Below, one piece after another: positions 1 through 16,182 of a stretch of DNA of 56,452 bases; within the stretch, counting starts at the first letter, position 1; every line of letters starts with the position of its first letter. The stretch comes from Muribaculaceae bacterium (lineage in GTDB: Bacteria > Bacteroidota > Bacteroidia > Bacteroidales > Muribaculaceae). A program made the translations under genes and the position numbers. Location of the stretch: contig JAFZSO010000018.1 of the NCBI GenBank assembly GCA_017619355.1, forward strand, positions 1-56,452, written 5' to 3'. The notes under the pieces were generated by a model that was given only the letters and a program-made list of their open reading frames with translations, was not told where the DNA came from and did no database searches.

Positions 1-3000
1 AGAGGCCATCAACCATCAGTCTTCATCCACTCCCCAACACCAGTCCCCCGTAGGTGAAATTACGGTAGCGCCGCTTTCTTTCTCCCAAACTGGTGTTTAT
101 ATCGACTGTATTAACAATCCTGAAGACACTCAGTACAACATTCCATGGGTATTCGGTTTCCCTGCCGATATGGACGCTGAGCGGCTGCGCAAAGCCGCAT
201 TGACAGTTTTAGAGGCGCACAAGCATATCTTTGTTCGCTTTGAGGCCGATGGCGATGACATTGTACAACGTTATGCACCCGTTGATATCGATATTCCAAT
301 ATTATCGCTTTCGGACGTACAGCTCGCAGAGCACAAAAAGGCTTTTGTACGCCCGTTTGATTTGGCCAAGGACGTGCTATGCCGAATGGAAATTGCCAAG
401 ACAGAAAGTGGTGTATTCCTGCTTTTAGACATACATCATTTGGTATTCGACGGCAGTTCGCTGGATTTGTTTATCATCCAACTTTGTGATGTTTTGGAAG
501 GCAAGGGCGTAGAGAAGGAGACCTATACTCATCTAAATCACGCAGCCGACGAACAAAAAGATTCGGTAGAGGCTCACAAGGCTTACTATGATAATTTGTT
601 GGGGGCGTGCGAAGGGGCTACCGAGTTGCCAGCAGACCTAACAACACCTCATGAATGCGAGAAATCATCGGAATTGTATCGCCCAATCGACTTAGATGCC
701 ATTGAGCGCTTCTGCCGTGAGCACCCAGTAACCCCAGCACACCTGACACTGGCGGCTACACTATTGACATTTGCCCGCTTTACTGGCAACGACGACCTGT
801 ATATAAGCACCGTTTCCAGTGGACGTTCCAATATCCGTATTCAAAACACCTTCGGTATGTTTGTCAATACACTTCCGTTTGCTGCGAAACTTGGTGGCGG
901 GAGTGTGATGGACTTCATCAAGGATGTGAGCAAACGCTTCGCCGAGGCCATGCGCCATGAGCAGTATCCTTTTGCCCGTATTGCCGCCGACTATGGTTAT
1001 ACTCCTGAACTGGCATTTGCCTATCAGTTAGGAATGGTTACGCGCTATATGCAGAACGGGCACGAGGTGAGTGTTGAAAGTTTAGAGGCAGGTGCTCCTA
1101 AGTTCAAGTTGATAGTACGCTTGGAGATTCATAACGGACAGCCGAGCATCGTGTCGGAATATGACAACGGCCAGTACAGCGAATCATTAGTGTCGCAACT
1201 CACCGAGTCGATTGCCAATGTGCTTAAGACTTTCATCAACCAGCCACAGACACCACTTGCCGATGTATCGCTACTCTCGGCAGAACAGGTTCAGTTGCTG
1301 GATTCCTTCAACCAAAACGAAGTGCCTTACGACGACACTCAAACCGTTGTCTCGTTGTTCCGCCGTCAGGCAAAAGAGACTCCCGACAACGTTGCTGTGG
1401 TTTATAAAGACACAAGGCTGACTTACCGTGATATTGACGAGTTGAGTGACCGAATCGCCAGTTATATTGCCTCGAAGGGCTTAGGAACCGAAGATGTGGT
1501 CTCGGTGTTGATTCCGCGTTGCGAATTGATGCCTATTGCGTCATTAGGCGTTATTAAGGCCGGTTGTGCCTATCAACCATTAGACCCCACCTACCCGAAA
1601 GAGCGTCTGAACTTCATGATGCAGGATGCTGATGCCAAACTGCTTATTGCCGACGAAGAATTGCGGCCCATCGTAGACGAATATCAAGGCGATGTGCTGC
1701 TGACAAAAGACATTAAAAACATCGAAATAGCGGACCATCGACAGGCCGAGGTTTCACCCGATGACTTATTTATACTCCTCTACACTTCAGGCTCGACGGG
1801 AACGCCTAAGGGTTGTCAGTTGACGCATAGAAATCTCGTGGCCTTTATCCATTGGTATCATCGCTATTTCGACCTGAAGGAGACAGATAAAGTTACTGCT
1901 TATGCATCGTATGGTTTCGACGCTAACATGTTTGACACATATCCAGCACTGACGCGTGGTGCCGCGGTTTATATCATTCCTGAGGAACTTCGTTTGGATT
2001 TGATAGCCCTGAACGAGTATTTCGAGCATGAACACATCACCAATGCCTTTATGACGACACAGGTGGCATATCAGTTTGCGACAACCATCGAAAATCATTC
2101 GTTAAAACACTTCACAACAGGTGGTGAGAAACTGGCTTCGCTTGAGCCTACTAAGGGCTATAAGTTGCATAACGCCTATGGACCTACCGAAACCACGATT
2201 CTCGAAACCTGCTATCAAGTGGACCAGAAGATGAAGAACATTCCCATTGGCAAAGCAATCGATAACATGCACTTGTATGTTGTAGATTCACAAGGTCACC
2301 GCTTGCCTGCAGGTGCTGTGGGTGAGTTGTGGGCCAGTGGACCGCAAGTGGGCCGAGGCTATCTGAACCGACCAGAGAAAACGGCCGAAGTGTTTATCGA
2401 GAATCCTTTCTCAAAAGAAGCCAAGTATGCGCGAATTTACAGAACAGGCGATATCGTTCGCTATCTGGAAGATGGCAGTATCCAGTTTGTAGGTCGAAGC
2501 GACGGACAGGTGAAGATTCGCGGCTTCCGCATCGAACTCAAGGAAGTAGAGGCCGTTATCCGCGACTTCCCTGGCATCAAGGATGCCACTGTCCAGGCTT
2601 TTGATGAGCAAGGCGGAGGAAAATTCATTGCTGCCTATATCGTTAGCGACGAGCAGATAGACATCGAGGCTTTGAACAGCTTCATCCTTGACCAGAAACC
2701 GCCGTATATGGTGCCTGCCGTGACGATGCAGATTGACAGCATCCCATTAAACCAGAACCAGAAGGTGAACAAGAAGGCACTTCCAAAGCCAGAGAAGAAG
2801 GCCTCACAAGCAGAAACCGTGAATGCGCCATTAAATGTACTGGAAGAGGAACTGCACGAACTGATTGCCAGCATCATCAACAATACCGACTTTGGCATCA
2901 CTACCATTCTGGGCTATGCCGGATTAACCTCTATTTCAGCCATCAAACTCGCCGTTCAGGTGAACAAGCGCTACGGAGTCACCCTCGATTCGAAATCGCT

Positions 3001-6000
3001 GGTCAAGAGCGGCACGCTACAGGGCATTGAGAACGAGATTCTAACACACTGCTTGAGTGGAGATGCGCAGTCAAAGACTCCAGAAGTCAAACCATCACAC
3101 AATATCGCATCACCCGTACCGCTCTCCTACCCGCAACAGGGAATCTATGTGGAGTGCATGAAGAATCCCATGGCCATTGTCTATAATGTTCCCTTCTCAC
3201 TGACCTTCCCTGCAGGAGTATCAGCCGATGAACTGACAAAAGCAGTTGCCGAGGTAGTGCGCCTGCACCCGTTGCTCGCTTGCCATTTCGAGCTTCAGGG
3301 CAACGAGACTGTACAGGTATGGAACAAGGATCATGAGGCTCTCGTGGGTCGGCAAAAAATGAGCGATGCTGAATATGAGCAGCATAAGCACGAGTTCGTC
3401 ATGCCGTTCCGTTTGAACGAAGGTCCGCTCTACCGATTGGAGGTCGTAGAGACCGATACTGCTCTTCACCTGTTGGCTGACTTCCATCATCTCATCTTCG
3501 ACGGTGCCTCTTTCGACATATTCTTCTCGCAAGTGGCAGCGCGTCTTAATGGAGAATCTATAGAAGCCGAACAATTCACTTATGCTGATTATGTGAAGAG
3601 TACAGAAGAGAACCCTGAAGCCAAGGATTTCTTCAACAAGGTTCTGGCAAACTGCGAAGATGCTACAGAGATACCTGCCGATTTACAGGGAACAAAAAAC
3701 CAAAGCCATACCGGTGAGGCTGCATTCCCCATTGACATGGAACGCATTGAGCAGTTCTGTCACACACAGGGCATCACGCCCGCCAATCTGCTGTTAGGAG
3801 CAGTCTATTACACCATTTCCCGCTATGCTGCCACTCGCGATGTGTATATGTCGACCATTAGCAATGGCCGTTCTGATGTGCGTTTGTCTGATACCGTAGG
3901 CATGTTTGTAAACACATTGGCTCTACATGGTCATATCGGCGAAGGCATGGTGAAGGATTTCCTGAAGACTGTCAGCACTGACTTCGACGAGACCATGCGA
4001 CATGAGCAGTATCCATTTGCTCGCGTTGCTGCCGACTATGGTTTCTATTCGAAGATCAACTTCGTATATCAGATGGGGGTTATCAACGAATACAAGATAG
4101 GCGAAACACCTCTGGATATTGAGACGATGGAGCTCGACATCCCGAAGTTCAAAGCATGTGTTCTCATCAGTCCTCATCAAGGTCAGCCCTCGGTGGTCGT
4201 GCAGTATGACGATTCCTTCTATAGTCAGCAAATGATGGCAGGTCTTGCCGAGAGCATTGCCGCTGTAGCAAATCATTTCATCGACACACCTGATGCGTCG
4301 TTGCGCAGCATCTCCATCATGAGTGAGCGGCAGCGCCAGATGGTTGCACCCATGCATGAAGAAGGCCGTGGCGATATTCCGGTGCTCTTCCTGCATCAAG
4401 GCATGGAGCAGCAGGCTGCCCAGCATCCCGACCGTCTGGCATTGGTGGCCAGCGATGCAACCTTCACCTACGCTGAGTTCAACTCAGCTGCCAATCGCAT
4501 CGCAAATGCCTTGATACAGCGGGGCGTGAAGCCACGCGACAGGGTCGCCATGTTGTTGCCGCGTACCAGCAGGGTGATGCTCTCGATGTATGGCATTCTG
4601 AAGACGGGAGCAGCCTTTATTCCTTGTGACCCGCACTACCCTGCCGACCGCATCCAGCTGATACTCGATGACTCCGATGCCCGTTATATCATCACCGACG
4701 CAGAGCATGCCAATCTGGTACCAGCCGACAAGATGCTTGATGTTGAGGAACTGCTCAACTGTCAGTTGTCAACTCTCAACTGTCAGCCCGACATTACTCC
4801 CGATGACTTGGCCTACCTGATTTACACCAGCGGTTCTACGGGTCGTCCTAAGGGCGTGATGCTGCATCACCGCGGCATCTGTAACGAGTTGACAGCCCAC
4901 CCTGTGAACAAACGCAACTATATTGCCAAGAATGAAGGGCATGCTGCGCTCGGACTCACATCGCTTTCATTCGATGGCTCATTCGTAGAACACGGTCTGG
5001 CACTCTTCAACGGACTCACCTTCGTGCTTGTACACGACGACTATGTGAACGATCCGCTCGAGGTAACCCGCTTAATGGACGATAACCATGTTGACATCAT
5101 CTGTTCTGCACAGTCGCGTTTGGTTTCGTTCATGGCCAGCGATGGTTTCATGGAAGCCCTGCGCCGTTGCATCATTGTGATGTGTGGTGGTGAGAAATTC
5201 CCCGACGGCCTGATGCGCCGCCTGCAGGAACAAACGCCTCAAGCTCACATCTTCAATTGCTACGGACCTACGGAAACAACCGTAGAGAGTAACTGCCATG
5301 AGTTGACTCACGAGGAGCAAGTTACCGTTGGCCGTCCGTTGCTGAACATGCAGGAGTGCATTGTAGATCAGGATCTCAACGAACTGCCAGTTGGTGTGAT
5401 GGGCGAGCTGCTTATAGGTGGCGTACAGGTGGCTCACGGCTACAACAAACTGCCTGATAAGACCGATGCAGCCTTTATTACCTGGCAAGGACAACGCTTC
5501 TATCGTTCGGGCGACTTTGCCCGTTGGGACGAGAAGGGCCGTGTTCATATCCTCGGCCGTACCGACAATCAGGTAAAACTGCGTGGTCAACGCATCGAGC
5601 TGGGTGAGATAGAAAGTGTGATGATGAAGGTTGAGGGCGTTAACAATGTCACAGTACTCATCCGTAAGCTGAACGGAAAGGATCATCTCTGTGCCTATTT
5701 CGTGGCCGACCGCGAGATTCCCATCGACCAGATGAAGGCACAAATCAGCAAGAGCCTTACTACCTATATGGTGCCTACGGCCTATCTGCAACTGCCCGAA
5801 ATGCCTGTCACACCTAACGGAAAGATCAATACGAAAGTGCTGCCTGAACCTCAAATGGTTGCTGTTGGTGACTATGTGGCCCCGCAGAACGATACTGAAC
5901 AGACCTTCTGCGATATCTTCGCTGAAGTACTGCAGATTGAGAGAGTGGGTGCTACCGATAATTTCTTCGATCTGGGCGGTACTTCGCTGAATGTGACACG

Positions 6001-7339
6001 CGTCATCATCGAGGCCGACAAACACGAGGTGCATGTGGCCTATGGCGATGTGTTTACCAATCCAACCCCCAGGCAGCTTGCGGCTCTGATTTCAGGCTCT
6101 GATGCTTCTTCATCTGAAGGCGGCGATGCTACAGCCGATCGCAATTTCGACTACGCACCGCTCGACGCCCTTTTGAAGCAGAACACGCTTGACGCTTTCC
6201 GTGAAGGCAACCTGCAGAAGATTGGCAATGTGCTGCTTACGGGCTCAACAGGTTTTCTGGGCATTCACATTCTCAAGGAACTGATTGAACGCAACGATGT
6301 GCCTGTCATCTGGTGCATGGTGCGCGCTGAGTCTGAAGAGAAGGCACAGAACCGCCTGAAGACGATGCTGTACTTCTATTTCGCAAACAACTACAAAGAA
6401 CTGTTCGGCACACGCATCCGTGTTGTCTTGGGCGATGTTACCAAGGACTTCACCAGCCTCCCGACTCTCATCTCCGACTTCTCTGTCGACACCGTGTTCA
6501 ACTGCGCTGCAGTAGTGAAGCACTTCTCCAGTGGCACTGATATTGAAGATGTGAATATAGGCGGTGCTGTGAACTGCATGAATTTCTGCCTGAAGACAGG
6601 TGCCCGCCTCATACATACATCTACTTACAGTATTGGAGGCATGTCGGTAGAAGGGCGTCTGCCTGCTGATACGGTGCTCTCGGAACGCGACCTCTACTTC
6701 GGACCGTATCTCGACAACCAGTACATCCACTCCAAGTTTGTGTCGGAGCGTACGGTGCTCGACGGCATTGTGAATCACGGACTGAAGGCGAAGATTATGC
6801 GTTTGGGCAATCTGGCACCCCGCAGCACTGATGGTGAGTTCCAGATTAACTTCCAGACCAACAGCTCGATGGGGCGTATCCGTGTATTCAAGATGTTAGG
6901 GTGCTATCCCTACGATATAAGTGACGATGCAATGGAGTTCTCGCCCATCAATGAGGTGGCACAGGCTATCGTACTGCTCTCGCAAACGCCCGACAGCTGC
7001 TGTGTATTCCATCCTTACAACAACCATCCCGTGCTCTTTGGCGATGTGCTGGCTGGCCTGGCAAAGGTTGGTGGTGCTCCTGTTCAGGTTGAGACTGAGG
7101 AGTTCGCTCGCAAGATGGACGAGGCCAAAGCCGATTCGGTGCGCGCGAAGTTGTTGCAGAGCTTAATGGCATATCAGGATATGGCTCATGGTCAGCAAGT
7201 CACAACCATTGAGCCCGTCAACCAATACACCTCTCAGGTGCTTTACCGATTGGGCTTCAAGTGGTCAGCCACTTCGTGGGATTATATTGAACGCTTCTTG
7301 ATAGCCATTAACGGCTTCGGATACTTTGATGTGGAGTAA
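1..7339 (+). CDS. Multimodular nonribosomal peptide synthetase, C-A-T-C-A-T-R, 5' truncated by window edge
   Basis: The frame is open from base 2, so the gene starts left of the window. Domains by position: condensation 1 (about 71-1300, HHLVFDG at 434-454, FGMFVNT), adenylation 1 (about 1350-2790, core YTSGSTGTPKG), carrier 1 (Ser codon 2930 in GLTS), condensation 2 (about 3115-4330, HHLIFDG from 3485), adenylation 2 (about 4370-5840, YTSGSTGRPKG), carrier 2 (Ser codon 5984 in LGGTS) and a thioester reductase (about 6220-7336) with the NADPH motif GSTGFLG and a YIHSK active-site motif. There is no thioesterase or epimerase. By family knowledge such enzymes load amino acids on phosphopantetheine arms, join them, and release the chain by NADPH reduction as an aldehyde or alcohol; aldehydes often cyclise to pyrazinones. 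The linker before condensation 1 resembles the one between carrier 1 and condensation 2, so I infer at least one more upstream module. The product is unknown. No MbtH, phosphopantetheinyl transferase or exporter is nearby. Confidence 0.96.
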   Translation, partial: EAINHQSSSTPQHQSPVGEITVAPLSFSQTGVYIDCINNPEDTQYNIPWVFGFPADMDAERLRKAALTVLEAHKHIFVRFEADGDDIVQRYAPVDIDIPILSLSDVQLAEHKKAFVRPFDLAKDVLCRMEIAKTESGVFLLLDIHHLVFDGSSLDLFIIQLCDVLEGKGVEKETYTHLNHAADEQKDSVEAHKAYYDNLLGACEGATELPADLTTPHECEKSSELYRPIDLDAIERFCREHPVTPAHLTLAATLLTFARFTGNDDLYISTVSSGRSNIRIQNTFGMFVNTLPFAAKLGGGSVMDFIKDVSKRFAEAMRHEQYPFARIAADYGYTPELAFAYQLGMVTRYMQNGHEVSVESLEAGAPKFKLIVRLEIHNGQPSIVSEYDNGQYSESLVSQLTESIANVLKTFINQPQTPLADVSLLSAEQVQLLDSFNQNEVPYDDTQTVVSLFRRQAKETPDNVAVVYKDTRLTYRDIDELSDRIASYIASKGLGTEDVVSVLIPRCELMPIASLGVIKAGCAYQPLDPTYPKERLNFMMQDADAKLLIADEELRPIVDEYQGDVLLTKDIKNIEIADHRQAEVSPDDLFILLYTSGSTGTPKGCQLTHRNLVAFIHWYHRYFDLKETDKVTAYASYGFDANMFDTYPALTRGAAVYIIPEELRLDLIALNEYFEHEHITNAFMTTQVAYQFATTIENHSLKHFTTGGEKLASLEPTKGYKLHNAYGPTETTILETCYQVDQKMKNIPIGKAIDNMHLYVVDSQGHRLPAGAVGELWASGPQVGRGYLNRPEKTAEVFIENPFSKEAKYARIYRTGDIVRYLEDGSIQFVGRSDGQVKIRGFRIELKEVEAVIRDFPGIKDATVQAFDEQGGGKFIAAYIVSDEQIDIEALNSFILDQKPPYMVPAVTMQIDSIPLNQNQKVNKKALPKPEKKASQAETVNAPLNVLEEELHELIASIINNTDFGITTILGYAGLTSISAIKLAVQVNKRYGVTLDSKSLVKSGTLQGIENEILTHCLSGDAQSKTPEVKPSHNIASPVPLSYPQQGIYVECMKNPMAIVYNVPFSLTFPAGVSADELTKAVAEVVRLHPLLACHFELQGNETVQVWNKDHEALVGRQKMSDAEYEQHKHEFVMPFRLNEGPLYRLEVVETDTALHLLADFHHLIFDGASFDIFFSQVAARLNGESIEAEQFTYADYVKSTEENPEAKDFFNKVLANCEDATEIPADLQGTKNQSHTGEAAFPIDMERIEQFCHTQGITPANLLLGAVYYTISRYAATRDVYMSTISNGRSDVRLSDTVGMFVNTLALHGHIGEGMVKDFLKTVSTDFDETMRHEQYPFARVAADYGFYSKINFVYQMGVINEYKIGETPLDIETMELDIPKFKACVLISPHQGQPSVVVQYDDSFYSQQMMAGLAESIAAVANHFIDTPDASLRSISIMSERQRQMVAPMHEEGRGDIPVLFLHQGMEQQAAQHPDRLALVASDATFTYAEFNSAANRIANALIQRGVKPRDRVAMLLPRTSRVMLSMYGILKTGAAFIPCDPHYPADRIQLILDDSDARYIITDAEHANLVPADKMLDVEELLNCQLSTLNCQPDITPDDLAYLIYTSGSTGRPKGVMLHHRGICNELTAHPVNKRNYIAKNEGHAALGLTSLSFDGSFVEHGLALFNGLTFVLVHDDYVNDPLEVTRLMDDNHVDIICSAQSRLVSFMASDGFMEALRRCIIVMCGGEKFPDGLMRRLQEQTPQAHIFNCYGPTETTVESNCHELTHEEQVTVGRPLLNMQECIVDQDLNELPVGVMGELLIGGVQVAHGYNKLPDKTDAAFITWQGQRFYRSGDFARWDEKGRVHILGRTDNQVKLRGQRIELGEIESVMMKVEGVNNVTVLIRKLNGKDHLCAYFVADREIPIDQMKAQISKSLTTYMVPTAYLQLPEMPVTPNGKINTKVLPEPQMVAVGDYVAPQNDTEQTFCDIFAEVLQIERVGATDNFFDLGGTSLNVTRVIIEADKHEVHVAYGDVFTNPTPRQLAALISGSDASSSEGGDATADRNFDYAPLDALLKQNTLDAFREGNLQKIGNVLLTGSTGFLGIHILKELIERNDVPVIWCMVRAESEEKAQNRLKTMLYFYFANNYKELFGTRIRVVLGDVTKDFTSLPTLISDFSVDTVFNCAAVVKHFSSGTDIEDVNIGGAVNCMNFCLKTGARLIHTSTYSIGGMSVEGRLPADTVLSERDLYFGPYLDNQYIHSKFVSERTVLDGIVNHGLKAKIMRLGNLAPRSTDGEFQINFQTNSSMGRIRVFKMLGCYPYDISDDAMEFSPINEVAQAIVLLSQTPDSCCVFHPYNNHPVLFGDVLAGLAKVGGAPVQVETEEFARKMDEAKADSVRAKLLQSLMAYQDMAHGQQVTTIEPVNQYTSQVLYRLGFKWSATSWDYIERFLIAINGFGYFDVE

Positions 7340-7374
7340 CAATTTTAAAAATATTGGAAAAATTGGGGGAAATG

Positions 7375-7405
7375 TTGCGAGAACGAAAGATTTGATATAA
7401 ATTTG
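7375..7405 (+). promoter_or_regulatory. Bacteroidota-type promoter for the tRNA
   Basis: TAAATTTG at 7398-7405 matches the TAnnTTTG -7 element. A TTG at 7375-7377 sits about 20 bases upstream as a possible -33 element. It lies 45 bases before the tRNA and after the NRPS stop, so the tRNA probably has its own promoter. Confidence 0.5.
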
Positions 7406-7449
7406 CACTCGCTTTTGAGATGAGCATCGATGAAGATGGCATCCAAAGC

Positions 7450-7523
7450 GGTCCCATAGCTCAGTTGGTTAGAGCACCTGACTCATAATCAGGGAGTCCT
7501 TGGTTCAAGCCCAAGTGGGACCA
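7450..7523 (+). tRNA. tRNA with CAT anticodon (elongator Met or lysidine-type Ile2)
   Basis: The cloverleaf is complete: acceptor GGTCCCA pairs with TGGGACC, D-stem GCTC/GAGC, anticodon stem CCTGA/TCAGG around loop CTCATAA, T-stem CTTGG/CCAAG around TTCAAGC, discriminator A at 7523. The CCA end is not encoded. A fully paired first acceptor position and the absence of three G:C pairs in the anticodon stem argue against the initiator tRNA. Elongator Met and Ile2 (C34 modified to lysidine) cannot be separated by eye. Confidence 0.93.
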
Positions 7524-7524
7524 C

Positions 7525-7557
7525 AAAAAACCGCCTCAAACAAGGCGGTTTTTTTGT
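7525..7557. terminator. Bidirectional intrinsic terminator
   Basis: Stem CCGCCT (7531-7536) and AGGCGG (7543-7548) with a six-base loop, flanked by A-run and T-run (7525-7530 and 7549-7555). It can end the tRNA transcript on the plus strand and the three-gene operon arriving on the minus strand. Confidence 0.85.
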
Positions 7558-7604
7558 TTGTCTCCGGCACATGAGATTTCTACAGCCGTCAACACGAAAT
7601 CATC

Positions 7605-7632
7605 ATCTTGGGAATCACATAATTCCCAAGAT
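7605..7632. repeat. Perfect 11-bp inverted repeat spanning a stop codon
   Basis: ATCTTGGGAAT (7605-7615) and ATTCCCAAGAT (7622-7632) enclose a six-base loop. The hairpin covers the stop codon of the minus-strand gene ending at 7615. It has no T-run, so it may protect the mRNA 3' end or slow ribosomes rather than terminate. Confidence 0.6.
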
Positions 7633-10600
7633 AATATTAATGATGGCTGTGACATCGTTCACATTGATGGAGTCGTCGCCGTTCGCATTGGCGTTGTTGA
7701 AGTTGAACGGGCTGGGGTTCTTGCCCAGGATGTGGTTGATAACCGTGGTAACATCATTCACATCTACTTTGCCGTCTTCGTTGGCATCGCCAGGCAGGGG
7801 TTTCTCAGCAGTGAAATAACCCGTTACGGGGTTGGCCATTACGCCATCGACCTGATTGCTGTCATAGGCCACAGCACCTACTAGTTTTGTAGACCACAAG
7901 AACATGTCGTTGGTGGTTGCATTGGTCAAATCCCACGAGTTCTTGCAATAGATGGTGGTCATATCCTTGCACCAGGCTAACATCATTGTGGCATCTTCAA
8001 CCTTGCTCACATCGAAAGTGTTCAAATCAAGTTCCTTAAGGCTTTCGCAACTCCTGAACATCGAGTTCATATTGGTAGCCTCGCTGGTGTTCAGATACTC
8101 AAGACCTTCTATTTTGCTGAGATACTTCATATTTGCAAACCACTTGTAGAAACTGGTAGGTTTAAATCTGGCGAAACTTTCGTCGATAACCACCTTGGTG
8201 CAGTAACGAGCAATCATCGAGGAGAAAGTGTCGTTGTACCAACCAGGATAGTTCGTGCCCATATTAAGCAGATACATGCCTCTCCACACTTGGTTTACGG
8301 TCTGGCCTTCCCAAGTGCCTTCTGCCACAGGAGGTTCATCGGTGCAAGTCATGAACATCGTGAGCACATTGGTTCCATTAACATTCTGGCGGCAATAAAT
8401 CACTGTGGGCAGCATGTTGGTCTTGAAGTAGCCAGTAACGGGATTGGCCATCGTACCATCTGTTTTATTGGAGTCATAAGGTACGGCTCCCACGAGTTGG
8501 GTGGATCCTGCGAACATGCCAACCGTGGTGGGGATGTCCCAAGAATTGTCGCAATAGATGGTGGTAAGATTAGAGCAAGCACGGAACATGGCAGAGGCAT
8601 TTGTCACTTTGCTCACATCAAAACTGTTGACATCAATCGACACGAGAGAATGGCAACTCAGGAACATTGAGTTCATGTTGGTCACCTGGCTGGTGTTCAA
8701 GTACTCAAGTCCCGTGATATTGGTGAGATTCCCGAATCCATTGAACCAAGTATAGCAGCTCGTGGGTTCTACTAAGGCAAAACTGCTGTCGAACACCACA
8801 GTTGTGACTTCTGCTTTCACTTCGTTCCATCCAGGTGTTCCCCATCCGGTATTGAGGATTCTGTCGAGCCATACCTTAGTTATGGTGTGTCCGTCCCAAG
8901 TGCCGCTACTCAAAACACTGACTGGCTGCCTGACGAAGTAAAGGGTCGAATTGTCCTCGGTCCACAGCACGGCGTCAATGGAATCAGGGGTGAAGAAGGT
9001 GACGGTGACAGTCACCGATTCACCGGGCATGGTGAAGGTGTAGTTGCTGCCATCAGCGGTCACATTGATTTCGTTGCCTGAGGCATTGCCTGTGACAGTG
9101 ACGCTGCTTAAAGTGCTGAACTGGCCTGGTGCTGGAATGATGGTGATTGTTGTGCCAGGGAAACCTATTTCAGGAACCTGGACAGTACCGTCGCCATTAA
9201 CGACAAGTGTCACAGGATTAGACGAAGTGAAGTAGCCTGTTACAGGGTTAGCCATCGAACCATCGCTCACTCCACTCTCCCAATAAGATACAGCACCTAC
9301 AAGTTCAGTGTCGTAGGAGAACATAGCGTTACTCGTTTCGACATTCCATGTGTTATCGCACCAGATAGTGGTTAATGTGAAGCAATCGAAGAACATTCTG
9401 GTGGTAGAGGTGACCTTGCTCATGTCGAAGTTGTTGACATTGATAGTTGTCAACGACCAGCAGTTTTCAAACATTGAAGTCATGTCAGTGACCTCAGAAG
9501 TGTTCAAGTATTCCAATCCCTCAATATTTTCCAAATTGCGGAAAGAATAGAACCAGTGATAACAAGTGGCTGGCCGTGCGTTGGCAAAGCTGGGTGTAAA
9601 CACCACATTTTCAGCCACCCTGCTTTCGGTACTGTTCCAGAACGGCATTCCGAATGTCGGCAGAGCCATTCGGCCAATCCACAAGGCGGTGATAGTCTGG
9701 CCGTCGTAGGTGTCGCCAACCTGCGGTTCGCTTTTTGGGGCAACATCGTAGTCGAAGTAGAGCGTGCTGTTGCCTTCACACCAGATGACGCGAGCACCCA
9801 CGTCTTTAAATGTGGCACTAACGCGGAACTTGGTGCTCTCAAGATAGTTGGGGGCAATGTCGTCGTAGAAGTCATCGGGTAGTGTGAAACTGAAGTGTGT
9901 ATCATCGATGCTGGACACATATATTTCCTCTTGAGGGTACCACAAATTCTGTGATCTGATGGGAGCATGTGGCGTGCCGCCACCTTGAATTTCATATCCG
10001 GCCAAGACGGTGATGCCAGTTAACATGCAACCCATGTCGGGGGTAATGGTGAGTGTGACGGTGTCGCCCACACGAGCTTCCGACACATCGGAAGTGACGG
10101 TGCCATGCTCGCTGTCGAGAATCTCGATTTGGTAAACCGTGTGACGGAATGTGGCGTGGACCGTAACGTCGCCATAAGGCATGTTGAATGTGAGCAATTC
10201 GCCCATGGTTACCCAGGTGTACTCCAAATCGTTTCCATCTTCATCGGTGATTGAGAGGTGGTTAAGGGCATAGTCTTCATCAGGGGTGACTGTCAGAGTC
10301 ACCAGGTCGCCATGGTGGTGGGCTTGGCCCGATATGGTTTCACTCACAGAACCGTGTTGCATGTTTTCGTCGAAGAACACATAGTAGTCGGCCAGCTTGA
10401 ATGTGGCATTAACGGTTACTTGGCGGCAGTCAGGCATGATAAATGAGAAACTGTTCTCGCCTACTGTCGTGAAATCTACCGGAATAGACGAGGAGTTATC
10501 GGTCTCGGCCACTACTGTTACCACATCGGTGTCATATCCTTGGTCGGGTTCCGTGTAGAAATATATCACATCTCCTTCATAGCCAGAATTTTCTGTGAGT

Positions 10601-11217
10601 AATGTGCCGTGTTCGGTTTCTCCTATTGATATGGGGATTATGTCTCTTGCTTCAAACAAAGGAGTGACGGTCACATCGTCGGTGCCGATAGTGAATGAGT
10701 ACTGGTTTTGGTCAATGGCATTTGCATTGATAGGGTTGCCCGTGTTGTCCTCCACCACCTGCACTCCAGTGGTTTGGAAGCCATCGTTGGGGTAGATGGT
10801 GACGGTAATCTCAGTGCCTGGAGCGGCGTGGTCTACATTCACTGATGCCATCCCTTCTTCGGCTGGTTCACTGACCGTTACTGCATAATACGAGCGCGTA
10901 AAAATGGCCGTAATGTTTACATCTGATGGGGGCATAGTGAAGCTGTAAGCCTCATAGTTGGGGTCATAATACGGGTCAAACTGAATGGCTTCTTCAGTGT
11001 CTTGTCGTGTAATGGACATTTGATGTAAAGTCCATAAGTCACTCTCGGGGTGAATAAACACCTTGATCAATTCTCCCGCATTGGCGGTGCCCGACAACTT
11101 GTTGACCGTGAGGCTACCTCCATTGTTGTTGAAGATGTTGATATGATAGTTGCGAGCCATGGTCACGGGAGCAACGGCAAACATGACTATCAATGTATAT
11201 AATAATTTTTTCATCAT
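7615..11217 (-). CDS. Secreted surface protein with InlB-type beta repeats, three DUF285 modules and a dockerin-like C terminus
   Basis: 1200 residues. A signal peptide covers about residues 1-21 (MMKKLLYTLIVMFAVAP). Residues about 25-470 hold a series of beta-rich repeats like the divergent InlB B-repeat (for example EHGTVTSD, GDTVTLTITPDMG). Three DUF285/BspA-like leucine-rich modules follow at about 475-663, 748-931 and 938-1138; each has the pattern GLEYLNTS..T.M.SMF.. and ends in a near-constant DG.MANPVTGYF. The last about 60 residues carry two EF-hand-like dockerin repeats (DANEDGKVDVNDV and DDSINVNDV). The family is linked to surface adhesion; dockerin-type repeats bind calcium. It is the last gene of an operon, 20 bases after the BspA-like gene. 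Ligand and the role of the dockerin end are unknown; no cohesin is visible in the window. Confidence 0.85.
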   Translation of the reverse strand: MMKKLLYTLIVMFAVAPVTMARNYHINIFNNNGGSLTVNKLSGTANAGELIKVFIHPESDLWTLHQMSITRQDTEEAIQFDPYYDPNYEAYSFTMPPSDVNITAIFTRSYYAVTVSEPAEEGMASVNVDHAAPGTEITVTIYPNDGFQTTGVQVVEDNTGNPINANAIDQNQYSFTIGTDDVTVTPLFEARDIIPISIGETEHGTLLTENSGYEGDVIYFYTEPDQGYDTDVVTVVAETDNSSSIPVDFTTVGENSFSFIMPDCRQVTVNATFKLADYYVFFDENMQHGSVSETISGQAHHHGDLVTLTVTPDEDYALNHLSITDEDGNDLEYTWVTMGELLTFNMPYGDVTVHATFRHTVYQIEILDSEHGTVTSDVSEARVGDTVTLTITPDMGCMLTGITVLAGYEIQGGGTPHAPIRSQNLWYPQEEIYVSSIDDTHFSFTLPDDFYDDIAPNYLESTKFRVSATFKDVGARVIWCEGNSTLYFDYDVAPKSEPQVGDTYDGQTITALWIGRMALPTFGMPFWNSTESRVAENVVFTPSFANARPATCYHWFYSFRNLENIEGLEYLNTSEVTDMTSMFENCWSLTTINVNNFDMSKVTSTTRMFFDCFTLTTIWCDNTWNVETSNAMFSYDTELVGAVSYWESGVSDGSMANPVTGYFTSSNPVTLVVNGDGTVQVPEIGFPGTTITIIPAPGQFSTLSSVTVTGNASGNEINVTADGSNYTFTMPGESVTVTVTFFTPDSIDAVLWTEDNSTLYFVRQPVSVLSSGTWDGHTITKVWLDRILNTGWGTPGWNEVKAEVTTVVFDSSFALVEPTSCYTWFNGFGNLTNITGLEYLNTSQVTNMNSMFLSCHSLVSIDVNSFDVSKVTNASAMFRACSNLTTIYCDNSWDIPTTVGMFAGSTQLVGAVPYDSNKTDGTMANPVTGYFKTNMLPTVIYCRQNVNGTNVLTMFMTCTDEPPVAEGTWEGQTVNQVWRGMYLLNMGTNYPGWYNDTFSSMIARYCTKVVIDESFARFKPTSFYKWFANMKYLSKIEGLEYLNTSEATNMNSMFRSCESLKELDLNTFDVSKVEDATMMLAWCKDMTTIYCKNSWDLTNATTNDMFLWSTKLVGAVAYDSNQVDGVMANPVTGYFTAEKPLPGDANEDGKVDVNDVTTVINHILGKNPSPFNFNNANANGDDSINVNDVTAIINIILGIM

Positions 11218-11237
11218 CGTTGTGGGAAGTTAGTGAA

Positions 11238-14200
11238 TTACTTGATTAAGATTTTCTTGCCATTGTGAATGTATATGCCTGCAGCGGTGGGTTTGTCGCG
11301 CAGCACGCGTCCATCAATAGTGTACCAGTTGGGGTCGGTGTTCTGGTTCACATTCAGGTCTTCGACAGGAGTAAGAATAATGCTGTCGTAATCGATCACG
11401 ACACGAGTCACACCCAAGGTGCTGTTGACTATTGTGTTGCTTAGCATGAAGAACCCGCGGAACGCATTGATTTGAGTGGGAGACTCGGGATAGAACAACT
11501 GGTTGTCGTCACCTATATAAAGAACCTGCTTGTTGCCTTCGGGCAGCATTACGGGAGAGTAGGTGCCGGCGAATGCTACAGGACCAGCTCTTTTAATTTC
11601 GGGTTGTACACTCTTGATTGAAACACTTTCGAAAATGGGATCATCGATACGAGGTGCCTGATTCCACTTGATGATATAGGGCCTGCCGGCTTCAATGCTG
11701 CTGGCGTACATGAAGTGGAGTCGTAGTGTACCGTCTTCATCATTATATTCAGAACCGGAGAGGTAACGAACTGTGGCCTGGTCCAGAGGTGTGCCATGGA
11801 ACGACTCGACATCGAATGGCAAGCACAATGTGTACCATGTGTCATCCTTGTAGAAGGTGCGTCCGTCAAGTACTACGTCTACGACAGTGCCATTGTAGGC
11901 AGCGATGCGGTCTTCGTTCTCGCCCGAATCACTTAACGGAAGTTGTATGATGGCGTTGAAGTGGTCGACCGTCTCGCCGCTCTGGTTGATGAGATAGCAG
12001 GTGAAGGGCGGAATTGTTGATTGGTCAACGCGCCATGTGTCATCTTCTTGTAGCCTGTAGGGGGTTATATCAGCACCTGGAGTGAATTTGCCTGGGGAAC
12101 CGTACATGCGGTAGTTATCGTCAGTAAAGGACTGGTACAAAATACCTTTTTCGCGAGGTTCAATCACAATTTCGTGGTCCACACCGAGTTTGATGGGAGC
12201 GTCGTTAACCATAATATAATAAGGGAACCACGGTTTGATGATACCGTCGTCGACGACTCTCATCTCGACAACGACATGATCGTCGTCTTGGCGAGTGCCT
12301 ACAGGCTCATAGATGCTTGCGCCGCCATTCACATTAAGCGAATAAGGCAGATAAAGGGTGTAATCGGTTGCCTTGTAGACATTGTATTCATAGAGCGACA
12401 TTTCGCCATCGGTTATGATAAAGCCATCTTCGTCTTGTATGGGATTGCCCTGACCGTCAAGCACAGCGATAGGCACGGTATAGGAAGCGGTGCCGTTGTG
12501 GGTCACATCGAGGGTGCGGTTATATTCGATGCCATTGGTTGCGGTGATTTTTGCAGTACCAATAGGCAGCATGGGGTTGTGAATCGATAATGGCATTGAC
12601 TCAGGTTTGTTGGGACTGAAGTTGTCATTAATCCACAATCGCGAAGCAACATAACTGTAACTGAGGTAACCATTGGGTGTCATATCGTACCAATCCTCGT
12701 TGGGAATATACCATTCGGGACTGAGGCTGTTGATGCGTGGGTTCTCGCTCTGAAGCTCCAACGGGCAATAGGAAGCTCGGTTAGCTTGTGGTGCAGGGAG
12801 CAGATGAGCCATTTCGGCTGGCACCGGATACTCCCCTTCTTGGTATATCCAGTGTTGCAATCCCAGTTCTGGTATCATGAACAATGTTCTGAAGTAGGCG
12901 TTCTTTATTGGATCCCAGATTGACATGGAAAAATCAGCAGTTGCCTGGTTTCCATCGGAGTTGATGTAGTTGACTGTGCGATTCTTATCCAAAACCACCT
13001 GTGAGTATTTCACATTTTCGGCAGGTTGATAATCGTTAGAGCTGATAGCCAAATCAGTGTTTGGGTCACGGCTGAACATTTGTCGTGTGTTGTAACAACG
13101 AGTCACATAAAAATCATAGTTGGCGGCACATTTGGCGACAAATGGGAAAGGCATCCAACCTGACATGGTGTGGTGTTCATTGTTATATATGCCACAGTCG
13201 GTAGCGCTGCCGCCGAAACATTCGCCCACCAGGAATCCATTGTAGCTGGGTGATTGTGAGAAAAGGAACCTGCAGTCTTTGACGACGCAATTGAAGAAAT
13301 CGGCACCACCACTGGTCAAGCATCGGCCCATCAAGAATCCGTTGGTCTTGAAATCGGATACTATTTCACAATTGTCAAGACACACATTTCTCATAGTGAG
13401 TGCACCACATTCACCCACCACGCAACCCAGCGTGCCGTTAGGATACTGTGTGAGGTCGGCACGGTCGCATTTGAAGGTGCAGTTCTTGAAAGTGACATCG
13501 CTGAAGTAATGTCCACCGTAGTGAGCGAAAAAGCCACCATAATTCTCGGTGTCGATGGTGAGGTTACTGATTGTGTGGCCGTTGCCATAGAAAGAACCTT
13601 CGAAGGCTTCTTCCTCACTGATGCCCATGCCACAGTCCCAGGGATAGTTACTCATGTCGATATCGGCATCAAGATAGACAGCGCCGATTTGCCCATACAT
13701 GTGTCCTACGTTGACAATCTCGTGAAGCACTTGAAGTTTGAATGGAGAATCGATATGGAAGGTTGCCTGGCCTACATGTATATAACTGAACGAACCCCAT
13801 CCGTCAGGGGTGGTCCAGCCTAATGACGGATTGCTGAAGTTGGCGGCCTGATATGTGGCTTCGTTAGGGACAAAAAGTTTGGTGGCCGCAGTTATGACTC
13901 CGGCTGCATTATCACCAATGCCTTTTTCATGGAAAACAAAAACATCGTTGTATTCCCATTTTGGGGGAATGGTTCCTTTACAGGTAACCGATTTCAAGGA
14001 ATTGAGGCAGCTTTGAAAGGCACCTGATCCAAGCGACTGCATGCTCTCGGGCAGGGTGATTTCGGTGATAGCAGGACAACCGATGAAGGCAAATGCGCCC
14101 ACACGGGTGACACCTTCTTCAAATTCCACGCCAGTAATGCCTTCGCACAGACGGAAGGCAAGGTCGGAGACCTCGGTTACGGTATATTGGTTGCCATTAA

Positions 14201-14429
14201 TCTGCACTGACCCCGGAACTGAGAGGAAACCTTCGACATAATGTGATACACAAGTATTGTGCCCATTGCCAAGAGCCACGGTGTTGCTGCTTAGTTGACG
14301 GTAAACGGCAGGAACTGATTCCCCATTTATCGTCACAGTGCCCTTGAGTTCGGCTGCATGGAGGGGCAACAGGTTAGCCAGCATCGCAGCCATTATGGTA
14401 AAGAATATCTTTTTCATTTTCGTGAACAT
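11238..14429 (-). CDS. Secreted BspA-like leucine-rich repeat protein with C-terminal sorting-like tail
   Basis: 1063 residues. A signal peptide is present (KKIFFTIMAAMLANLLPLHA). About residues 70-190 are BspA-type LRR_5 repeats (YTVTEVSDLAFRLCEGITGV, VGAFAFIGCPAITEITLPES). About 220-420 look like a right-handed beta-helix of GLUG type (FEGSFYGNGHTISNLTID then many short NCxF repeats). The rest is beta-rich and unassigned. The end, WYTIDGRVLRDKP and GIYIHNGKKILIK, matches the short tail common on Bacteroidales exported proteins. A start at residue 5 (14417, MKKIFF) is equally possible; I kept the first Met, which lies 10 bases after the preceding stop. The gene is co-transcribed with its neighbours. 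An adhesin or matrix-binding role is inferred from family only. Confidence 0.82.
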   Translation of the reverse strand: MFTKMKKIFFTIMAAMLANLLPLHAAELKGTVTINGESVPAVYRQLSSNTVALGNGHNTCVSHYVEGFLSVPGSVQINGNQYTVTEVSDLAFRLCEGITGVEFEEGVTRVGAFAFIGCPAITEITLPESMQSLGSGAFQSCLNSLKSVTCKGTIPPKWEYNDVFVFHEKGIGDNAAGVITAATKLFVPNEATYQAANFSNPSLGWTTPDGWGSFSYIHVGQATFHIDSPFKLQVLHEIVNVGHMYGQIGAVYLDADIDMSNYPWDCGMGISEEEAFEGSFYGNGHTISNLTIDTENYGGFFAHYGGHYFSDVTFKNCTFKCDRADLTQYPNGTLGCVVGECGALTMRNVCLDNCEIVSDFKTNGFLMGRCLTSGGADFFNCVVKDCRFLFSQSPSYNGFLVGECFGGSATDCGIYNNEHHTMSGWMPFPFVAKCAANYDFYVTRCYNTRQMFSRDPNTDLAISSNDYQPAENVKYSQVVLDKNRTVNYINSDGNQATADFSMSIWDPIKNAYFRTLFMIPELGLQHWIYQEGEYPVPAEMAHLLPAPQANRASYCPLELQSENPRINSLSPEWYIPNEDWYDMTPNGYLSYSYVASRLWINDNFSPNKPESMPLSIHNPMLPIGTAKITATNGIEYNRTLDVTHNGTASYTVPIAVLDGQGNPIQDEDGFIITDGEMSLYEYNVYKATDYTLYLPYSLNVNGGASIYEPVGTRQDDDHVVVEMRVVDDGIIKPWFPYYIMVNDAPIKLGVDHEIVIEPREKGILYQSFTDDNYRMYGSPGKFTPGADITPYRLQEDDTWRVDQSTIPPFTCYLINQSGETVDHFNAIIQLPLSDSGENEDRIAAYNGTVVDVVLDGRTFYKDDTWYTLCLPFDVESFHGTPLDQATVRYLSGSEYNDEDGTLRLHFMYASSIEAGRPYIIKWNQAPRIDDPIFESVSIKSVQPEIKRAGPVAFAGTYSPVMLPEGNKQVLYIGDDNQLFYPESPTQINAFRGFFMLSNTIVNSTLGVTRVVIDYDSIILTPVEDLNVNQNTDPNWYTIDGRVLRDKPTAAGIYIHNGKKILIK

Positions 14430-14439
14430 TTAAAAGTTA

Positions 14440-16182
14440 TTACCAACTGGAAGGAATATTACTGGTGGTTTGCCCGTTCCAGTGCAGGTCACAGAGTTTT
14501 TTCTTGGCTATATAGGCACGGATGCTGATTTCTTTAAGCACATCGGAGGTGGCATCGGCCTTGAAGAAGTCGGTTCCGGCATCTACATGATCATGACCTA
14601 ATGTTGAAGTGTGCAGCACCGCCCATGCGCCTAAATTAGCCTTGGCGCGTTGTGCGTTGACATAAGGCACTACATTGTCGGAGGTTGAATGGAAGAGCAG
14701 TATCGCATGCTGTGGAGTCCACCCCTCAGTCATGTCGTTGCTTGCCAAAGCAAGATGCAGATCCTCGAAGACTCCCCGATGTGTGGGCAAAGGTATGCCA
14801 CTTGCTGTCATGTAGGTGTCAGGGTTTTGCTCGTAAAGATTCTTGAAATAGTTGTAGCACTCTGGCTTCATGATGTTGCGCATCATGGCATGGCCATTGG
14901 AGTCAAAGACTGTGGTTTGACCATTTTGAGCCATCTGTTTCCATTTGTTGTCGATGTCGTCGGTGGTATAATTCTTGCTTGCAATCCAATCCATCACGCC
15001 AGTGTCGAGGAACTCTTGGGTGAAATAGTCTTCGGCTTTGTGCGCACGCATGTAGGGGTTGCTGTCGAGCATGCCCTTGATGATGAGCGGCAGCACGACG
15101 GGCATGCTCATGTAATCGCCATTCAGGTCCTTCTTCATGTAAAACATGAGTGTTGCTATAGGATCGTAGGGACCATCGCCGCATAACGAACCCGCAAAGT
15201 GCAGCTCATTGGTAAGACCGTTCTGCTCAATATAACGATGTGTTGCCAAAGCTACCGAGCCGCCTTGAGAGTAACCGCAAGAGATAGAGCGGAAGTCGGA
15301 GCGGATGGGGTGGCGGAAGTCCTTGGTCTTGGATGAGTTTTCATAGAGCGCCTTGCCGTAACGCACAGCATCAACCACCTGTCGAGCGGTCAATTCCTGA
15401 TATAGGTATGGGTGTGCATGGTCTCTTGTTTTGCCATATCCCTCATAATCTGGCATAATCACAAGGTTGAAGTTGTTGCTGGGTTCAGCACTCTTCACTT
15501 CGGTGGTAATGCCTATGATGGCCCATGCAACAAGTACTGGCGTGAGTACTGACCCTATGAGGGCCATTGAAACATTGGTGTCGGCTCCGAGTTTAAACTT
15601 CTTGCCTCCGGCAAGTGAGAACAGAATGCCCCAGTCGCTCTCTTCATAATTGTTTGTGCAGTTGGTGGGACATTCGTCATTTGAGCAGATGGTAATGTGC
15701 GTTCCGATGACGATGTCGCGCACCTCTGAGCAGGCACCCTTTTCGGGGCATGCCGCAATCGACGACAAAATCACCGTGTTGCCATTTGCATCTACCGAGG
15801 GGTATTCGTAGGTGAAAACTCGATAGTAGAAGTACGCGAGGTAATCACTCATCAGATTGCCTTTTTGGTTTTTGTCGGTAATGACTCCAGGAGCCTTCAT
15901 CACTTGTAGGCCCATTGCACGCCGTTCTTCGGCTTGTTGTTCAAGGTCACCATCACTCTCCCATAGGATGTAAGGATCGGCTTGATAAACAGTGTCGATT
16001 TTGTGGGTTTCAGGGTCCTCAACCGTCCAGTGGTAGATGTCGGCTGCAACAACGCCTACATCAGTGATTCGGGCGTCGCGGTAATCCACTTTTTTAGGAA
16101 TTGGGCCTAATGCCCCTTGCGCCAACACATTCTGCGTCAGCGCAACCATGGCAATTATAGCCAGAATTGAAAGTTTCTTCAT
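14440..16182 (-). CDS. Secreted alpha/beta hydrolase (secretory lipase or esterase-like)
   Basis: 580 residues. A signal peptide ends near residue 21 (ALTQNVLAQG). The hydrolase fold shows the nucleophile elbow G-Y-S305-Q-G-G, a likely acid at Asp502 (HSTSDNVVPY) and a likely base at His530 or His532 (LGHDHVD). The arrangement recalls secretory lipases and prolyl-type esterases, but the substrate cannot be told from sequence. Six Cys between residues 145 and 174 (ACPEKGACSE, ICSNDECPTNC) may form disulphides. A hydrophobic stretch at about 204-226 is unusual for a soluble hydrolase and may be a lid or membrane contact. It is the first gene of the three-gene secreted-protein operon, with a promoter match 72 bases upstream. 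Confidence 0.85.
   Translation of the reverse strand: MKKLSILAIIAMVALTQNVLAQGALGPIPKKVDYRDARITDVGVVAADIYHWTVEDPETHKIDTVYQADPYILWESDGDLEQQAEERRAMGLQVMKAPGVITDKNQKGNLMSDYLAYFYYRVFTYEYPSVDANGNTVILSSIAACPEKGACSEVRDIVIGTHITICSNDECPTNCTNNYEESDWGILFSLAGGKKFKLGADTNVSMALIGSVLTPVLVAWAIIGITTEVKSAEPSNNFNLVIMPDYEGYGKTRDHAHPYLYQELTARQVVDAVRYGKALYENSSKTKDFRHPIRSDFRSISCGYSQGGSVALATHRYIEQNGLTNELHFAGSLCGDGPYDPIATLMFYMKKDLNGDYMSMPVVLPLIIKGMLDSNPYMRAHKAEDYFTQEFLDTGVMDWIASKNYTTDDIDNKWKQMAQNGQTTVFDSNGHAMMRNIMKPECYNYFKNLYEQNPDTYMTASGIPLPTHRGVFEDLHLALASNDMTEGWTPQHAILLFHSTSDNVVPYVNAQRAKANLGAWAVLHTSTLGHDHVDAGTDFFKADATSDVLKEISIRAYIAKKKLCDLHWNGQTTSNIPSSW

Follow-up and report, generated by a model that had tools for sequence, protein, structure and literature searches.

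A truncated reductase-terminated nonribosomal peptide synthetase gene, most likely at least trimodular and apparently acquired horizontally, in a rumen Prevotella-like bacterium

The stretch of 56,452 nucleotides analysed here (the window) begins within the 3′ part of a nonribosomal peptide synthetase (NRPS) gene that ends in a reductase (R) domain. In the reading preferred here, which is given a probability of about 75%, the complete gene would have the domain order A-T-C-A-T-C-A-T-R (A, adenylation; T, carrier; C, condensation), would have been transferred from a lineage similar to the relative G026 and would direct the synthesis of a reactive peptide of at least three residues. The host is a rumen Prevotella-like bacterium, and NRPSs of this kind are already known to be widespread among microbes of the rumen and gut. 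The window spans contig C29 of a draft genome from end to end (G000; 74 contigs totalling 2,628,495 bases, completeness 89%, contamination 2.36%). The NRPS frame reaches base 2 at the contig edge and, since the window starts at base 1 of C29, the gene is truncated on its 5′ side.

The assembled part of the gene encodes 2445 amino acids in a frame that is open at the contig start and free of internal stop codons and frameshifts, so that a broken gene is ruled out for this part (table 1). Pfam identified two Condensation, two AMP-binding and two PP-binding domains and one NAD_binding_4 domain (108 bits); a thioesterase was absent from the families listed for the protein, and profiles built from the family returned the order C-A-T-C-A-T-R. 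Two C-A-T modules followed by a terminal reductase without a thioesterase, in a Bacteroidales genome, had been described in an earlier note made from the letters alone, and that description was borne out. The description of two complete modules holds for the assembled part but not for the gene as a whole, because C29 starts inside it. The HH and D columns of the HHxxxDG motif are invariant in all 118 aligned C domains, those of the window included (the G is present in 117 of 118), and the carrier serines of both T domains are present in the translation. Among solved R domains the best match was 6vtj (208 bits), an R domain from Methanobrevibacter ruminantium, followed by the R domain of AusA (4f6c, 123 bits); the alignment with both spans the NADP-binding and Y-x-x-x-K regions with the Y and K aligned. 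At the level of sequence, the gene is confirmed as a reductase-terminated NRPS with intact C, A and T motifs and a predicted SDR-type R domain in place of a thioesterase. A phosphopantetheinyl transferase (PPTase), whose absence from the genome would have counted against a functional enzyme in the earlier note, is present as the sole PF01648 match (contig C48, 54.8 bits). In agreement with the same note, no tailoring gene was noticed on the 3′ side in a Pfam scan of 24 other open reading frames of the window, which are part of all its frames.

Table 1. Positions of the NRPS gene part, its domains and the adjoining insertion edge in the window
Feature	Position	Strand	Basis
NRPS gene, 3′ part, C-A-T-C-A-T-R	2..7339	+	ORF, Pfam, family profiles
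Condensation domain, internal type	56..1312	+	Family profiles, C-domain alignment
Adenylation domain, pocket code DAFFFTAIL; among solved structures closest to the first A domain of LgrA	1346..2806	+	
Carrier (T) domain, core GLTSI	2834..3052	+	Translation, profiles, alignment
Condensation domain, second in the window	3107..4357	+	Profiles, C-domain alignment
Last adenylation domain, predicted to set the C-terminal residue; pocket code DGVCVCCVE	4391..5866	+	
Carrier (T) domain, core GGTSL	5888..6103	+	Translation, profiles, alignment
Predicted terminal NADPH-dependent reductase (R)	6206..7330	+	NAD_binding_4; solved R domains
Right insertion edge: 204-column match (89%) to G063:C3:50284-50082, much of it tRNA-Met	7358..7560	.	
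tRNA-Met (CAT) beside the NRPS gene	7450..7524	+	

The number of modules in the complete gene was approached through the rest of the genome and through relatives. Condensation domains were matched three times in G000, on C29 and C37 only, and a search with the whole window protein recovered both contigs again, together with two weak, partial matches (further along C37 and on C65). The NRPS frame on C37 starts with an ATG at 4040 (− strand), which aligns with the start codon of the G026 NRPS, and runs off the contig end as A-T-C-A(part). The NRPSs of G026 (3010 amino acids from the ATG, 91% protein identity to the window) and G028 (a frame of 3018 amino acids, 87%) are both A-T-C-A-T-C-A-T-R, and intact trimodular frames were also found at loci L050, L051, L063, L064 and L086. 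Overall, among the loci examined and with duplicates removed, 8 trimodular frames (the R domain of L088 is cut by the locus end) stand against 42 C-A-T-C-A-T-R frames, the truncated one of the window included, and no frame with four A domains was found among the family frames profiled for domains. The first C domain of the window is 82–85% identical to the second C domain (C2) of trimodular genes outside its own clade, with the next best match at 46%. Compared with dimodular genes, the C2 class has a mean identity of 43% to second C domains and 25% to N-terminal ones. An assignment of these N-terminal C domains as starter type from solved relatives was set aside; a starter type is suggested by their position and their distance from other C domains. 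The window frame opens in a T-C linker that resembles that of G026, and the four relatives (83–91%) whose frames reach that far (L040, L042, L050 and L053) all begin with A-T. Because the close intact relatives are trimodular with an A-T start, the first C domain is of the internal type and the frame starts in a T-C linker, the gene is most likely at least trimodular.

The two NRPS contigs appear to border one site, since their flanks align 51 bp apart in the sister genome G063, where the site is empty. The left flank (C37:4521-7369) aligns to G063 C3:50335-53170 (78%); on the right, the empty site is matched by a short stretch that contains the conserved tRNA, and C29:16679-23708 continues in order on G063 at 85%, with no alignment of C29 to G063 between 7560 and 16679. 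Three large genes on the − strand (window 7615-16182) sit between the tRNA-Met and an SPFH gene, where G063 has about 1.5 kb; they encode a DUF285/InlB-repeat protein with a dockerin-like end, a BspA-type LRR protein and a protein with a weak LIP match. The 480-bp stretch upstream of the NRPS start on C37 (locus L004) has no match in G063, and a 57-base imperfect inverted repeat lies within it (4314-4370). In a further genome, G092, the blocks matching C29 and C37 adjoin but the C29 block is inverted, so that G092 does not show the same junction. Among the matches listed, G063 carries a single NRPS of its own, which is dimodular, 54% identical and located on another contig.

The overlap between C37 and C29 measures 2303 bp, with a DNA identity of 86.9%. 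Their third-position identity in the overlap (71.7%) is close to that of either copy to G026 (70.2% for C29 and 70.4% for C37), and the longest exact match between the C37 end and C29 in a comparison of shared k-mers is 45 bp. Since the two copies are as diverged from each other as each is from G026, a mixture of strains or species explains the overlap better than a duplication within this lineage. The somewhat favoured explanation is that the bin combines two strains or species of the sample, one represented by C37 and the other by C29, which both carry a trimodular gene at this site. The bin contamination of 2.36% is compatible with such a mixture, as is the different distance to G063 (78–85% identity for C37 segments, mostly 85–91% for C29 segments), but the bin contains no second strong copy of the flanking core genes and the flanks of the two contigs are complementary and without overlap. 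An alternative is a single G000 gene of four or more modules, with an assembly gap within a repeated C-A-T module, or two tandem NRPS genes; the contigs are oriented such that the gene would run from C37 into C29 across the 51-bp site in G063, the C37 core genes have one strong copy in G000 (four matches, three of them weak), and both contigs end inside the NRPS gene. Such an arrangement is nevertheless rather improbable: an in-lineage duplication should be closer than the distance of either copy to G026, no profiled frame has four A domains, and an exact match of 45 bp should not by itself break an assembly.

Comparisons with G026 suggest that the gene was acquired by horizontal transfer. The DNA identity to G026 is 86.5% both for C29 (over 7339 bases) and for C37 (over 4058 bases), and the similarity covers the coding frame and ends within a few bases of it on both sides. 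Core stretches compared are 72–74% identical to G026, 70–75% to G028 (one short match of 67%) and 83–88% to G063. At third codon positions, the NRPS (70.2% for C29, 70.4% for C37) far exceeds mutS (45.0%) and a ligase gene on C37 (49.5%) in identity to G026, a contrast that is based on these two core genes and would be weaker if the NRPS were unusually constrained at synonymous sites; mutS of G000 and G063 shows 70.1%. The contrast is smaller with G028 (81% DNA identity in the NRPS), where third-position identities are 58.2% and 59.3% for the NRPS and 50.9% for mutS. Because the third-position identity of the NRPS to G026 is far above that of the core genes, the gene looks horizontally acquired from a G026-like lineage.

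Relatives also show exchanges within the gene. The trimodular NRPSs of L050, L051 and L063 share 89–96% protein identity over A1, C2 and A2 but only 39–47% over C3 and 53–58% over R. Compared in 150-base intervals, the DNA of L051 and L063 is 57–84% identical over the first 600 bases and 91–97% identical from about 600 to 4350, except for two intervals (85% and 70%) near 3300-3600; beyond about 4350 a single interval of 84% is followed by a drop to 38–71%. The dimodular gene of L072 shares 91% identity with the back of the L063 gene (6366-9111) and 81% with its 4192-6339 part. This is direct evidence that L063 is chimeric and that its terminal T-C-A-T-R block was exchanged near the Asub/T boundary. 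The parts of PMC8097286 that treat mosaic NRPS genes formed by recombination across species describe mainly swaps of Acore, with the Asub-T interface kept, and a few larger exchanges, whereas between L051 and L063 the whole T-C-A-T-R block changes at the Asub/T region.

Several further variants were observed within the family. At locus L088 (9977-27156), a dimodular and a trimodular R-type NRPS gene lie in tandem. The trimodular gene is truncated within its R domain at the locus end, and its first A domain, with the code VPQILVVGM, is highly divergent. L047 (genome G062) contains a separate one-module C-A-T-R gene (1436 amino acids) with the pocket code DAEGTGVDD, the acidic residues of which presumably resemble those of codes for basic substrates; partial matches like this gene were found in 13 other genomes of the genus, 12 of them in frames of 1436–1483 amino acids and one in a frame of 790. 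A first A domain shortened by about 40–50 residues occurs in 14 loci (L069, L071, L072, L076, L080, L087, L088, L090-L093 and L095-L097); its match to the A model is split in two, the break lying about 97 residues in.

The gene neighbourhood was compared across 63 relative loci (own genome and duplicate contigs removed), and since these combine one scan for close relatives (59 loci) with chosen stretches from a genus search and are partly hand-chosen, the proportions are not a census. The most frequent partner in the examined flanks is a dCache-SpoIIE-HATPase phosphatase (42 loci), followed by an Alginate_exp-like outer membrane protein (OMP; 23 loci), a MATE exporter (16), a PPTase (14) and an SNF symporter (13). 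Many of the relatives are fragmentary MAGs; among the 45 loci with wide flanks (at least 4 kb upstream and 2 kb downstream) the phosphatase is present in 35, and five (L047, L064, L067, L068 and L102) have none of the five partner families. At least 64 of the 101 genomes covered by the genus search had a 52–56% match over 2000 or more query residues, and a few of these matches carry stops. A second gene directly downstream of the trimodular NRPS in L064 (19123-22260, 1046 amino acids) and L086 (19063-22308, 1082 amino acids) encodes AMP-binding, carrier and thioesterase domains, so that these loci may couple R release with a thioesterase enzyme. The MATE exporter of L050 (6813-8615) is a longer form fused to an anti-sigma-like HATPase_c_2 domain, and that of L053 resembles it by length only (585 amino acids).

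None of the five partner families occurs in the window or on C37, and the NRPS gene of G000 stands alone, apart from the operon in which relatives often keep it. The pathway had been proposed to consist of a single large gene, which agrees with the assembled part of G000 but not with relatives, where a sensor phosphatase is often, and a porin-like protein, exporter or PPTase less often, found nearby. The only phosphatase-like match in the 2.6 Mb of G000 is on C51 and adjoins an OMP; this contig (L117:10974-14543) carries the porin-like OMP and the dCache-SpoIIE phosphatase with NRPS and MATE genes absent, and the best MATE match in G000 is 22%. The flanks on C51 are 88–89% identical to the NRPS locus of G063, the phosphatase and OMP there only 67–70% in DNA. 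Separation from the operon could mean that the NRPS gene is silent in G000.

In the recurrent partner phosphatase, the PP2C residues V-G-G-D, G-D..G-K-G and T-D-G are invariant in 38 of 38 sequences (a further Asp in 33), and the HATPase motif residues are kept in 37, the remaining row being a gap. Divergence is greatest in the sensor domain (mean identity 35%, against 56–57%), which co-varies with the pocket of the last A domain (rank correlation 0.40, 0 of 999 permutations, 30 loci), also when R and the remainder of the phosphatase are controlled for (0.26, 1 of 1999 permutations). A sensor tuned to the C-terminal residue was nevertheless rejected, as the specificity for the pocket was lost in a control over all domains of the terminal module: the correlation with the sensor was 0.30 for the last C domain and 0.45 for Asub, and 0.40–0.50 for all terminal parts in 25 dimodular loci. 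A dCache domain of the amino-acid or AI-2 type was also rejected because the R and W positions are not kept. By the receptor criteria given in the relevant part of PMC9540692 (R126 and W128 of PctA), and with positions placed by eye rather than from an aligned PctA, the equivalents are E/D in 30 of 38 and F/Y in 31 of 38 sequences; in the Y-x-D of the sensor, likewise placed by eye, the Y is present in 38 and the D in 28, and a later D in 38.

Conservation of the PP2C residues, divergence and co-variation of the sensor, and the presence of the phosphatase at 42 of the 63 loci, or 35 of the 45 that have wide flanks, together with MATE in 16 and OMP in 23 are what might be expected if the product were a cell–cell signal that is exported by MATE and sensed by the dCache phosphatase, which would set a sigma/anti-sigma switch. 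This reading is unlikely, given that the co-variation is not specific to the A pocket, that the phosphatases of G026 and G028 are only 45% alike although their NRPSs are similar and both near to that of the window, that the G000 phosphatase is on another contig and that 21 of 63 loci lack it in the examined flanks; the phosphatase may simply regulate the operon. A broader proposal, which is more speculative still, is that rumen Bacteroidales and perhaps methanogens share a mobile peptide-aldehyde signalling system with swapped terminal blocks, a phosphatase as reader and export by MATE, and that G000 captured a foreign synthetase at tRNA-Met. If true, recombination at Asub/T would swap the reactive C-terminal residue as the synthetase gene passes between genomes, and G000 would have kept the phosphatase–porin pair where its sister keeps the whole operon.

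Returning to the preferred reading of a transferred gene with at least three modules, the likely chemistry can be outlined. Each A domain would activate an amino acid and load it onto the next T domain, the C domains would join the loaded amino acids into a chain, and the R domain would release this chain with NADPH as a peptide aldehyde, or as an alcohol on double reduction. A chain started at an A-T module instead of a lone N-terminal C domain should have at least three residues and a free N-terminus, and the product is probably a short, reactive peptide built from three amino acids or more. While the domain order and motifs are seen directly, we infer the aldehyde or alcohol of three or more residues with a free N-terminus. 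With positions placed by GrsA numbering, the pocket codes are DAMFLVGIF for the first A domain of C37, DAFFFTAIL for the second of C37 and the first of C29, and DGVCVCCVE for the last of C29. The code DAMFLGCTYK is named in the Leu/Ile/Val section of PMC12283262 (section 9), which together with LgrA as the nearest solved A domain to the first of C29 points to an aliphatic lean for the first two A domains. The codes are unusual and the calls weak, but they suggest aliphatic substrates, and thus the first two residues would probably be aliphatic. Prediction beyond this lean was set aside, as no substrate could be assigned to DGVCVCCVE; DGVC was not found in the main text of PMC12283262. Trimodular frames differ in their last code, which occurs in five unrelated versions (DGVCVCCVE, DAEQILSVE, DAMFLVGIF, DVALLIGCG and DAEGTGVDD); L064, L086 and L088 differ in the second code as well, and the first code varies little outside L088. 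The peptide would probably be secreted and might inhibit proteases or act as a signal. The earlier note had proposed a two-module enzyme whose dipeptide aldehyde cyclises to a pyrazinone, and although the window shows an R domain after two C-A-T modules, dimodular genes prevail among relatives (41 C-A-T-C-A-T-R frames besides that of the window versus 8 trimodular) and human-gut R-NRPSs described in the relevant part of PMC12327764 yield dipeptide aldehydes isolated as pyrazinones, such a product is very unlikely because the first C domain of the window is internal (82–85% to C2, a class with a mean of 25% to N-terminal C domains), the frame is open into a G026-like T-C linker and L040, L042, L050 and L053 all begin with A-T.

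Among known systems, the aureusimine synthetase AusA has two modules (A-T-C-A-T-R). It resembles the window gene in the A-T start (in relatives of the latter) and the R end and provides the best NCBIfam match (equivalog NF047350), with an R domain scoring 123 bits, but the window type has three modules and its score of 1140.6 bits, a lower bound because the gene is truncated, is below the cut-off of 2500 bits. Enzymes of the rup type begin with an N-terminal C domain (N-acylation), and the domain order of rup is that of the dimodular rumen relatives, C-A-T-C-A-T-R. Neither of the two rup-type traits tested, an N-terminal C domain as the first domain and exactly two modules, was found for the window gene, which by its relatives starts with A-T, has at least three modules and resides in a rumen Bacteroidales host. 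What it would have in common with the human-gut R-NRPSs (rup of Ruminococcus bromii and the dipeptide-aldehyde/pyrazinone family), as far as the relevant part of PMC12327764 describes them, is the kind of product and setting, NRPS-made peptide aldehydes from intestinal anaerobes; the same part summarises the gut dipeptide aldehydes and ruminopeptin. A human-gut framing of the gene is loose, as close relatives with a stated source come from water-buffalo rumen or omasum. In the passages of PMC10039858 on cultured gut genomes, the dipeptide-aldehyde clan comes entirely from Blautia. The dimodular NRPS mru0068 of M. ruminantium, reported in 2010, lies amid two serine phosphatases, an anti-sigma factor antagonist and MatE, and a thioester reductase domain is named for it in the legend of Figure S8 but a thioesterase in the main text (passages of PMC2812497 on the locus). 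It differs in being archaeal and in that those passages mention no OMP, while the window gene is trimodular in relatives and lacks such neighbours; a phosphatase plus MATE beside the NRPS was found neither in the window nor on C37.

The sections of PMC8241843 on rumen genomes count 5,346 NRPS clusters in 8,160 genomes, 934 of them in Bacteroidaceae, and report higher expression of some Prevotella clusters in steers of lower feed efficiency; for dimodular NRPSs, part of PMC9540692 gives 13 of 981 rumen genomes, and the available part of a Bacteroidetes survey (PMC9248904) has no passage on the rumen or Bacteroidales. Since gut, rumen and methanogen R-NRPSs are in print, the kind is already known. 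A search of openly accessible papers found none that brings NRPS, Bacteroidales and SpoIIE together, and in the texts consulted there the trimodular form with an A-T start, its transfer and its isolation from the operon were not found described.

Among the biosynthetic genes found in the rumen, NRPS clusters are some of the most frequent. The mosaic formed by L051, L063 and L072 is a natural example of a terminal-block change near the A-T boundary of a peptide synthetase, and the locus described here combines a concrete architecture and an empty insertion site with a transfer between lineages that can be measured and a sensor–exporter partnership that recurs and can be tested.
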